From contig DATBHW010000046.1 in assembly GCA_036557285.1 (NCBI GenBank), positions 1 to 64,000 on the forward strand: DNA of 64,000 bases. Direction: 5' to 3'. The position numbers were made by a program, and so were the translations under genes. Source of the stretch: Ktedonobacterales bacterium (GTDB lineage Bacteria; Chloroflexota; Ktedonobacteria; Ktedonobacterales; DATBGS01). Positions 9,642 to 36,362 of this stretch are shown here, one piece after another (positions within the stretch are counted from its first letter, which is position 1; every line of letters starts with the position of its first letter). A model generated the notes under the pieces. The model made no database searches. It had not been told where the DNA came from and was given only the letters and a program-made list of their open reading frames with translations.

Positions 9642-9707
9642 CTACAGTGGAATGTTGCCATGCTTCCTGGGCGGGTTGGTGTCGCGCTTGTTTTTGAGCA
9701 TTTCCAG
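9642..9707 (-). pseudogene. Remnant 3' end of a carboxyltransferase gene (direct repeat, copy A)
   Basis: 66 bases identical, except for one synonymous change at 9647, to the 3' end of the carboxyltransferase gene at 10339-10404. It includes the stop codon and encodes the same C-terminus ([12 protein letters not shown]...). Weaker but still protein-level similarity extends to about 9729 (KLLHTLE versus KLIRALE). It therefore looks like the end of a second, diverged allele rather than a fresh copy. It lies between the endonuclease gene and the toxin gene and has no start of its own. Confidence 0.85.
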
Positions 9708-9752
9708 GGTGTGGAGAAGTTTATGGGCAAATGGATGTTCTATCAGACAAGC

Positions 9753-10338: not shown

Positions 10339-10404
10339 CTACAATGGAATGTTGCCATGCTTCCTGGGCGGGTTGGTGTCGCGCTTGTTTTTGAGCATTT
10401 CCAG
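10339..10404 (-). repeat. Direct repeat, copy B (intact 3' end of carboxyltransferase gene)
   Basis: Partner of the copy at 9642-9707, 697 bp away in the same orientation. The repeat covers the last 21 codons and the stop. Whatever entered between the copies left the reading frame of the carboxylase complete. Confidence 0.85.
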
Positions 10405-11889
10405 CGCGCGGATGAGTTTGGGGCGGGTGTCGCGCGGCTCGATGATCTCATCAATGTAGCCGCGCGCGGCGGCTTCGTAGGGGTTGGCAAACTTTTCCTG
10501 ATAGTAGGCGATAAGTTCCTGGCGGCGCGCCGTGGGGTCTGCGGCGCGCTCGATCTCGTCTTTGAACAGGATATTGACCGCGCCTTCCGGCCCCATGACT
10601 GCGATCTCAGCAGTCGGCCAGGCGTAGTTGATGTCGCCGCGCACATGCTTGCTGCTCATCACGTCGTAAGCGCCGCCGTAGGCTTTGCGTGTAATAACGG
10701 TGAGCTTGGGGACAGTGGCCTCGCAGTAGGCAAAGAGCAGCTTCGCGCCGTGTCGGATGATGCCGCCATGCTCCTGGCCGATGCCTGGCAGGAAGCCAGG
10801 CACGTCCTCGAAGGTGATGAGCGGGATATTGAAGCAGTCGCAGAAGCGCACAAAGCGCGCCGCTTTATCTGAAGAGTTGATGTCCAGCACGCCCGCCAGG
10901 ACGCTGGGCTGCTGGGCGATAACGCCGATGGAACGGCCATTGAGCCGCGCAAAGCCCACGATGATGTTGCGGGCGTATTGCTCCTGCACCTCGAAGAAAT
11001 CGCCGTTATCCACGACGCGGCGGATAATCTCTTTCATGTCATAGGGCTTGTTAGGGTTGTCGGGGATGATGTCATCAAGCGCCTCGTCTACGCGGTCAGG
11101 CGAATCGCCCGGTTCCAGGCGTGGCGGGTCTTCGACGTTGTTGGAAGGGATATAGCTCATCAATTGGCGAATCTGACGCAGGCAGGCGGCTTCGTTGGGC
11201 GCGGCGAAATGCGCGACACCGCTGATCGCGTTGTGGACGCTCGCGCCGCCCAGTTCCTCAAAGGTCACATCCTCGTGGGTCACGGTCTTGACGACATTGG
11301 GGCCAGTGACAAACATGTGGCTGATCCCATCAACCATAAAGATAAAGTCGGTAATGGCGGGCGAATAGACCGCGCCGCCCGCGCATGGCCCCAGGACCGC
11401 CGAAAGCTGGGGGACGACGCCAGAGGCCAGCGTGTTGCGCAGGAAGATGTCGGCATACGCGCCCAGGCTGACGACGCCTTCTTGAATGCGCGCGCCGCCG
11501 CTGTCGTTCAGGCCGATGATCGGCGCGCCGTTCTTCATCGCCATATCCATAATCTTGCAGATTTTTTCGGCGTTGGCCTCGGACATGGTGCCGCCAAAGA
11601 CGGTGAAATCCATCGCAAAGACATAGACCAGACGACCATCAATCTCGCCATAGCCGGTGACAACACCATCGCCCGCGATGCGCTGCTTCTCCAGCCCAAA
11701 GGCGCTGGAGCGGTGGGTGACGAACATATCCAGTTCATTAAAGGAGCCGGGGTCCAGCAGCAGATCAAGCCGCTCGCGGGCCGTGAGCTTGCCTTTTTTG
11801 TGCTGGGCTTCAATGCGTTTCTGTCCGCCGCCCAGCAGAGCTTCTTGCTTGAGTCGGCGGAGTTCTTCGCGGCGTTCGCGGGTATTCAT
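10339..11889 (-). CDS. Acyl-CoA carboxylase carboxyltransferase subunit (propionyl-CoA type)
   Basis: A 516-residue biotin-dependent carboxyltransferase of the PccB/MmdA family, of full family length. Typical segments are [15 protein letters not shown] near the N-terminus, the oxyanion-hole glycines in GGARIQEGV and [32 protein letters not shown], and the conserved C-terminus KHGNIPL. It transfers carboxyl from biotin to propionyl-CoA, giving (S)-methylmalonyl-CoA; the epimerase directly upstream supports this substrate. The biotin carboxylase and carrier subunits are not in the window. Methylmalonyl-CoA decarboxylase alpha subunit is the alternative. Confidence 0.85.
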
Positions 11890-14603: not shown

Positions 14604-15632
14604 TCACAGGCGGGTCTCGATCTCTGCGAGCAGGGCATGTCCACGAGTGATGTAGCGGTCACTTACCGCCTCTTCGTGATGACGGAGGGACCAATCTACC
14701 TGGCGCAAGATGAGATGGGCCAGGTACACGCTCAAGATCTGTATGGGACGGCGAGTGAGCGCGTATCCCCACAGGAAGTCGCGCACCGGCCCCTCATCAT
14801 AACCATAGAACAAGAGTGTGGTTCCACCAATTATCGGGGGTTGCCACTGGTAGCGCCGCCGTCCCGGCGGCTCACCGCTGCGCCAGGGCGAGCGTTCGCC
14901 CTCCGGGCCACGGCGCCCGCTGGCCAACGGTGGCCGCGGGGACGGCGGCGCTACAGGTGGCCCCCGCTTTTTGGCAGAACCGGCGCTGTCACCAGGACGA
15001 ACGCCCTCCCAATCCACCACGCCGCTGATGGCGCCCTGGCGCGTCAGCAGGTTGGCGGGTTGAAAATCAAAATGGACGATTTCGTTTGTCTCCCTGATAC
15101 GCTCCTGATGGGCAATTACCAAACCTTGAAGCGTTTGCAGCATATGAGCGGTCTCTGGCGAGTGCTGCTGCAATGAGGTATGCAAGCAATATCCATTGCC
15201 GCCCTCCATAACTGTTTGGATGACTTCACGGGGCCAATCGCGCGGGCCAGCAGGAGCCTGGGTTGCGTGCAAGGCGTGCAGCTTCAAGGCATCTGGCAAG
15301 TTTTGGAGGGTTAAGCGGCGCATCGTTGTGCCAGCAAGCCGCTGCTGGACACTGTAGATTCCGCCCGCAGCGACGCCGATATACAGATACACAGGGGCGG
15401 GATAGCCTTGCATGCGCAAGCGTTCCGTCACCGTTTGCGCATACAGCACGCGCTCAAGGTGGTCTGTTCCAGGCTGCCATTTGAGGATAGAGCGACGCCC
15501 CTGCGCGTCGCTCAGGGCATACGCGCCTTGCTCGCCTGTGGTGTATCGATCTCCAGATAGGAACGTAGTTTGGTGTACGGTGTTAATCTGCTGGACCACC
15601 TCTTCCAAAGGCAGCATAGAAACTCTACCCAT
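14604..15632 (-). CDS. Aminoglycoside-phosphotransferase-family kinase with a 54-codon insertion
   Basis: A 342-residue APH/choline-kinase-fold protein. The catalytic loop HFDFQPANLL and the metal-binding VVDWE are intact. Between GDSA and TLLFYGY, where relatives have only about four residues (a FDLA-like segment), there are 54 extra residues rich in Pro, Arg and Gly. They are encoded exactly by the 162-bp inverted-repeat element at 14820-14981. The reading frame continues on both sides. The substrate is unknown; relatives act on small hydroxylated metabolites or antibiotics. ATG 15617 is an alternative start. Whether the enzyme tolerates the insert is open. Confidence 0.75.
   Translation of the reverse strand: MGRVSMLPLEEVVQQINTVHQTTFLSGDRYTTGEQGAYALSDAQGRRSILKWQPGTDHLERVLYAQTVTERLRMQGYPAPVYLYIGVAAGGIYSVQQRLAGTTMRRLTLQNLPDALKLHALHATQAPAGPRDWPREVIQTVMEGGNGYCLHTSLQQHSPETAHMLQTLQGLVIAHQERIRETNEIVHFDFQPANLLTRQGAISGVVDWEGVRPGDSAGSAKKRGPPVAPPSPRPPLASGRRGPEGERSPWRSGEPPGRRRYQWQPPIIGGTTLLFYGYDEGPVRDFLWGYALTRRPIQILSVYLAHLILRQVDWSLRHHEEAVSDRYITRGHALLAEIETRL
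14820..14981. repeat. 162-bp palindromic element inserted in frame in a kinase gene
   Basis: The ends are inverted repeats: GGTTC at 14820 and GAACC at 14981, imperfect complementarity through a GGGGG/CCCCC block, then a perfect 15-base arm TAGCGCCGCCGTCCC (14851-14865) against 14939-14953. The centre is also GC-rich and partly palindromic. The length is 162 bp, a multiple of three, and the element has no stop in the kinase frame. The core TGTAGCGCCG...TCC also occurs in the element at 20623-20713, so a dispersed non-autonomous repeat family is likely. Confidence 0.75.
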
Positions 15633-36306: not shown

Positions 36307-36362
36307 CTCTTGACAAACTAATATAATTAGTATATATACTAATTATATTAGTTTGTCAAGAG
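36307..36362. promoter_or_regulatory. Perfect 56-bp palindrome containing symmetric promoters
   Basis: Every base from 36307 to 36334 pairs with its mirror from 36335 to 36362. The outer parts read CTCTTGACAAAC, the centre is A/T only. Each strand carries TTGACA, 17 bases and TATATA (plus: 36310-36315 and 36333-36338). The minus-strand promoter drives the metallo-hydrolase/tetR operon. TetR proteins bind such palindromes, so this is the likely autoregulatory operator. Confidence 0.85.

Follow-up and report, generated by a model that had tools for sequence, protein, structure and literature searches.

A likely MITE built around a REP dimer and read in frame by an APH-family kinase gene in Ktedonobacterales

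Introduction

Rickettsia palindromic elements (RPEs) are the textbook example of palindromes carried in frame within genes (PMC10969869, PMC3733652). Two further classes of short bacterial repeat are relevant here. GTAG-tagged REP sequences form inverted dimers (BIMEs or REPINs) and flank the genes for RAYTs; intragenic cases have been described, and GTAG repeats have already been listed from Chloroflexi (PMC3733652). Bacterial MITEs such as NEMIS/Correia and RUP are short, non-coding elements with terminal inverted repeats (TIRs) and a target duplication (TSD) of fixed length, present in hundreds of mostly intergenic copies, and other MITEs are known to have fused in frame with host ORFs (PMC10969869).

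Here we analyze a 162-bp element in the window, the whole 64,000-nt stretch of Ktedonobacterales DNA under study, and compare it with these systems. Like an RPE, it is a palindrome lying in frame in a conserved gene, to which it adds a loop of tens of residues. RPEs enter many genes, however, whereas the family of this element avoids them; a second palindrome of the same genome, M2, is the closer analogue, although its sequence is unrelated to that of RPEs. With the GTAG REPs the element shares the tag, the inverted dimers, the RAYT-like genes flanked by repeats, the intragenic occurrence and the presence in Chloroflexi, but here many of the dimers are wrapped in outer TIRs and appear to transpose as a unit with a 9-bp duplication. 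The MITEs named above resemble it in their shortness, lack of coding capacity, TIRs, fixed-length TSD, copy number and mostly intergenic location, but its interior is a GTAG REP dimer, and the full element was found in none of 46 other genomes of the order.

Results

The host, a member of the Ktedonobacterales, is a soil-type bacterium. Its genome is a 5.1 Mb draft in 82 contigs, from which a 2.36 Mb sample (46%) was taken for statistics on the family. The gene that carries the element is an ORF of 342 codons without interruption, matched by Pfam APH (PF01636) at residues 37–215 (E = 3.5e-12) and by APH(4)-Ia in a fold search (E = 1e-10). Its main features are as follows.

14604–15632, minus strand: APH-family (aminoglycoside phosphotransferase-like) kinase gene, insert included, identified from the ORF, Pfam, the fold match and orthologues
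15051–15074, minus strand: catalytic loop HFDFQPAN (H187, D189, N194), intact, in invariant alignment columns
15009–15014, minus strand: metal-binding motif D207-W208 (VVDW), intact in the alignment

The kinase thus has both the Brenner-type HxDxxxxN motif and the metal-binding Asp of APH kinases. Fold and catalytic motifs are shared with the hygromycin B kinase APH(4)-Ia and other APH-fold kinases, but identity to APH(4)-Ia is only about 16% by structure, and the insert stands in place of an F-D-[IL] motif. The insert itself is organized as two nested pairs of repeats.

14820–14981, minus strand: complete copy of the element, 162 bp, encoding kinase residues 218–271, with GGTTC/GAACC ends as in TSD-bearing copies
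14820–14849, plus strand: outer terminal inverted repeat with a GGTTCCACCAATTATCGGGGG-type end, as in TSD-bearing copies
14955–14981, plus strand: outer terminal inverted repeat, other end (reverse complement GGTTCTGCCAAAAAGCGGGGGCCACCT), again as in TSD-bearing copies
14850–14871, plus strand: GTAG-tagged REP-like palindrome GTAGCGCCGCCGTCCCGGCGGC, left inner arm
14933–14954, minus strand: second REP-like palindrome, inverted, right inner arm

The inner arms are 29 nt long, 90% complementary and 61 nt apart, the right arm being the reverse complement of GTAGCGCCGCCGTCCCGGCGGC with one difference. The element has a folding energy of −129.5 kcal/mol as RNA, with a z-score of −9.4 relative to dinucleotide shuffles; searches of Rfam with the element, the whole window and two M2-bearing stretches gave no match. 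The sequence-only reading that started this work had described a palindromic element with GGTTC/GAACC ends inside an APH-family gene, exactly 54 codons long and read through without a stop. The ends, the 29-nt arms, the ORF and the Pfam match bear this out, and residues 218–271 contain no stop in the kinase frame.

Searching the element against its own genome returned 114 matching pieces, so the further copies to be looked for proved plentiful. A 93% identical copy lies at C18:34469–34629. In the 2.36 Mb sample, 236 regions of 90 bp or more are family members or have modules in common with it, and all matches together cover 54.7 kb (2.3%). Both GGTTC/GAACC ends are present in 93 copies, 62 of which (67%) are flanked by a 9-bp target duplication when up to two mismatches are allowed, compared with 0 of 93 in a displaced control. 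Exact direct repeats immediately outside TIR pairs were likewise concentrated at 9 bp (31 cases), with 4 at 8 bp and at most one at 5–7 and 10–13 bp; between about one quarter and one third of the full-length copies show no clear duplication. The unit delimited in the initial reading therefore holds at exactly 162 bp, since other copies share its end bases and carry 9-bp duplications. A low-complexity coding loop, considered in place of an insertion, was ruled out by the intergenic copies and their TSDs.

The TSD-bearing copies range from 124 to 392 bp and encode no transposase. The family thus has the features of a MITE, with TIRs at both ends, a TSD of fixed length (found in the family, and lacking at the window copy), no transposase and many copies. 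No autonomous parent with GGTTC/GAACC ends was found at lengths up to 4 kb in the sampled 2.36 Mb. Loci encoding Transposase_mut (PF00872) and DDE_Tnp_1 (PF01609) were rejected as the parent IS on account of non-matching ends, as was one IS with a 9-bp TSD, whose ends are CAGGG. The end motif had no match in the genome and viral contig collections scanned, of which the genome collection may omit this genome and its near relatives. Within the order, element DNA matched 2 of 47 genomes, its own and G003, the latter through the 24-nt REP core alone.

That core is abundant. The sample contains 513 sequences similar to the GTAG REP, with GTAG at one end of a GC-rich hairpin, and 136 convergent pairs of them, 102 with a 60–69 nt spacer as in the window. 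RAYT-like Y1 transposase ORFs with an MPNHVH motif and GTAG REPs on both sides lie at C55:165651–165833 and C12:72467–72697. On these grounds it could be argued that what moves is the inner REP dimer, a REPIN or BIME moved by a RAYT as single-stranded DNA, with the GGTTC ends as accessories: the same REPs flank the RAYT-like ORFs, and 50 of the 136 convergent pairs have no recognizable GGTTC end within 90 bp. We consider this unlikely, as the 9-bp duplications fall exactly at the GGTTC/GAACC ends and the window insertion spans the outer TIRs from end to end. The most fitting description of the window element is a TIR transposon that encloses a REP dimer; the outer ends were probably acquired around the dimer and not the reverse.

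Two cases of REPs near or within other genes were seen in passing. The RAYT-like ORF at C12:72467–72697 is followed by a gene, C12:72956–76021, that carries a GTAG REP in frame. In G003, which represents another family of the order, GTAGCGCCGCCGTCCCGGCGGC lies beside a second palindrome, GGCGTCCGCCGGACGCC, at about 1470–1525, where both are apparently read in frame, close to where a transporter-like gene begins; from this case, intragenic REPs may be more widespread in the order.

The genomic context of the family was assessed with a codon score made for this analysis, rather than a published gene finder, applied to 180-nt flanks. By this measure, 7 of 276 sampled places looked coding on both sides, compared with 41% of random sites. 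Four of the seven are the M2 module and two proved to lie between genes; the seventh is the window copy, which was the only genic MITE left after inspection of the 276 places. The candidates set aside were C76:162990 and C47:129235, both intergenic on inspection, and C34:55549, where the ORF is an unlikely antisense one. The family avoids genes and is almost always intergenic. For 50 TSD-bearing copies, 70 of 300 combinations of copy, strand and frame contain no stop; in 23 of 300 (about 8%) the length is also a multiple of three.

Because the family is almost always intergenic and one genic copy was found, no special mechanism is needed to explain that one of hundreds of insertions has survived open and in frame. 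These counts bear on the comparison with Rickettsia made at the outset. A Rickettsia-type palindromic element, selfish and adapted to spreading in frame through coding genes, would also be palindromic, about 150 bp long and inserted in frame in a loop, and M2 palindromes of this genome do lie in frame in several conserved genes. We nevertheless give this explanation little credence for the 162-bp element, which has TIRs and 9-bp TSDs, is strongly intergenic with one genic copy among those sampled, and has stop-free frames at the rate expected by chance. Repeated in-frame presence in unrelated genes, the defining feature of RPEs, was found for M2 and not for the MITE: of the further in-frame genic copies sought, none emerged in the sample beside the window copy. 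The likeness to Rickettsia first proposed is thus only partly apt for the 162-bp family, a TIR-ended MITE with a 9-bp TSD, and suits a different, smaller family, M2, better; no copy of M2 lies in the window, where the initial reading could have noticed it.

To define the empty site, orthologues of the kinase were collected from Ktedonobacter racemifer, Ktedonosporobacter rubrisoli, Ktedonospora formicarum, Thermomicrobiales bins and others. The K. racemifer protein is 51% identical to the window kinase before the insert and 64% after it. Nine orthologues aligned across the site are all uninterrupted, as had been expected, and read GD-x-x-F-D-[IL]-x-T; in the window kinase, GDSA is followed by 54 element-coded residues and these by TLLFY. 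The window gene lacks the four codons F-D-[IL]-x, which all nine orthologues have, and the net change is +150 bp. The proposed insertion in frame between the metal-binding Asp and the next helix is thus supported by the alignments and the structure model, while the idea of a pure addition is not. Of the orthologues found in other genomes, none carried the loop. The two flanks of the element are given below.

14982–14990, minus strand: 5' flank in gene direction, GACAGCGCC, encoding D-S-A, without a match in the opposite flank
14811–14819, minus strand: 3' flank in gene direction, ACACTCTTG, encoding T-L-L and beginning at the conserved T272 of the orthologue alignments

These flanks differ at 8 of 9 positions, and the window copy has no target duplication. 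A standard insertion would have added a further 9 bp and cost the gene no codons. Judging by its exact ends and by its relatives, the window copy probably arrived by transposition like them; the target duplication would then have been lost along with 12 bp of coding sequence, the simplest route being one deletion of 21 bp from the element end (the 9-bp duplication plus four codons), which would account for both the missing TSD and the missing codons. Transposases can make deletions that begin at element ends. Alternatively, the insertion itself may have removed the 12 bp. The reading frame was kept because the element length and the loss are both multiples of three and no stop lies in frame.

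An assembly artefact, in which two loci were joined through a repeated element, could also leave a copy without a TSD, and the genome is an 82-contig draft with hundreds of repeats. Both flanks are nevertheless the halves of one kinase family and match a single orthologue gene around a 12-base gap, which makes an artefact very improbable.

The effect of the insertion on the protein was examined with a structure model built from an alignment of 10 sequences. The kinase fold is predicted with high confidence on both sides of the insert, while residues 213–266 fall below pLDDT 50 and the next helix begins at 267, inside the element-coded sequence; the insert is predicted to be disordered. H187, D189, N194 and D207 are intact, and the conserved F-D pair of the next helix, a feature defined here from the orthologues, is replaced, with Gly269 at the position of the Asp. 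Kinases of the APH fold have an Asp at this helix that helps to keep the catalytic loop in place. To judge from the alignment, the window kinase is probably impaired or inactive, because the conserved F-D-[IL] at the start of this helix is lost.

The intact ORF and the 64% identity of the C-terminal part to K. racemifer are also compatible with a kinase still under selection. It could further be supposed that the loop of 54 residues has been domesticated, giving the kinase a new regulatory or binding role, as the ORF has no frameshift and the HFDFQPAN and VVDW motifs are preserved. Such a role seems improbable, however, given the replacement of the near-invariant F-D-[IL], the predicted disorder of the loop and its confinement to one genome among the orthologues found. 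We favor an insertion that would be a tolerated passenger rather than a selected new function, in a gene that would yield a kinase with a disordered Pro/Arg/Gly loop of 54 residues.

The second palindromic family, M2, has the core GCGAGCGACCAACGGGAGCGAG and was found neither in the window nor in 399 other Chloroflexota genomes. The sample holds 100 copies, counting variants, most of them nested in long MITE copies. Solo copies in a coding context number five, all in phase and free of stops, with a sharp drop to the next-best scores. Several solo copies are flanked by stems of 8–9 bp that differ between copies yet are complementary. The genes with M2 in frame are listed here; the five solo copies are those in the genes for AlaRS, the AidB-like dehydrogenase, the two acyltransferase-like paralogues and the DinG-like helicase.

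C3:104261–104335: alanyl-tRNA synthetase (AlaRS)
C12:82597–82680: AidB-like acyl-CoA dehydrogenase
C3:203431–203525 and 204146–204228: two adjacent acyltransferase-like paralogues
C20:98477–98593: DinG-like exonuclease-helicase
C3:121582–121715: RIO kinase

Comparison with solved structures and paralogues indicated additions at these sites. Solved Rio1 structures have 4 residues at the position where the RIO kinase has 41. The AidB-like dehydrogenase has 34 residues against 6 in its closest structure, and AlaRS shows a net gain at the site of its insert. The two acyltransferase paralogues (40% identical) carry inserts of about 24–27 residues at different sites, each absent from the other. Comparing predicted genes with intergenic DNA gave 16 genes with an internal repeat, among them the RIO kinase, an ATPase (DUF499), a 2-oxoacid dehydrogenase E2 and a pyridine nucleotide-disulphide oxidoreductase. 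Since a gene is predicted only if its frame continues through the repeat, this set is biased toward in-frame cases, and a few members, such as C44:122670 and C3:23709, may have arisen by chance.

A third palindromic family, M3, runs from GCGGTT.AAACCGCGCC to GCCCGCCTGCGCGGGC and occurs in predicted genes at the following positions, its sites including the linker of a 2-oxoacid dehydrogenase E2.

C54:63392–63467: M3 in a predicted gene
C12:88018–88112: M3 in a predicted gene
C55:150181–150248: M3 in a predicted gene

We hold it to be an even bet that this genome runs a Rickettsia-like process by which palindromes enter proteins, in which at least three unrelated families (the GGTTC MITE with its REP core, M2 and M3) have come to lie in frame in conserved genes, including those for AlaRS and a RIO-type kinase, with M2 keeping its structure and not its sequence.

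Discussion

Our main reading, to which we assign a probability of roughly 0.8 as a whole, is that the 162-bp element is a non-autonomous transposon (MITE) mobilized in trans, that the window copy lost its target duplication, and that the kinase gene reads through it to give an impaired protein. In the proposed pathway, the interior is an inverted pair of GTAG REPs, probably acquired from the RAYT/REP system also present in this genome. The outer GGTTC...GAACC ends would be cut and joined in trans by a transposase making 9-bp staggered cuts, as indicated by the 9-bp target duplications of the family; this enzyme is presumably of the DDE type.

In-frame palindromes have been published before, in Rickettsia and as intragenic REPs elsewhere; what is new is the lineage and the combination of a MITE with a REP dimer. 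The findings show palindromic mobile DNA becoming part of proteins in bacteria only distantly related to Rickettsia. Through its composite build, in which a REP dimer is enclosed by TIRs and the whole makes 9-bp duplications, the family also connects two classes that are usually treated apart. The empty sites are clean, both in the nine kinase orthologues and in two neighbouring paralogues each without the insert of the other, so that it becomes testable whether such loops are harmless or mark slow gene decay.

Two further repeats were observed in the window. Positions 36307–36362 form a perfect 28-bp inverted repeat without a spacer, beginning with CTCTTGACAAACTAATATAATTAG, with promoter-like TTGACA and TATAAT on both strands. 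Positions 9642–9722 and 10339–10419 are an 81-bp direct repeat, 93% identical and 697 bp apart, the second copy of which covers the 3' end of a carboxyltransferase-like ORF (10339–11889).
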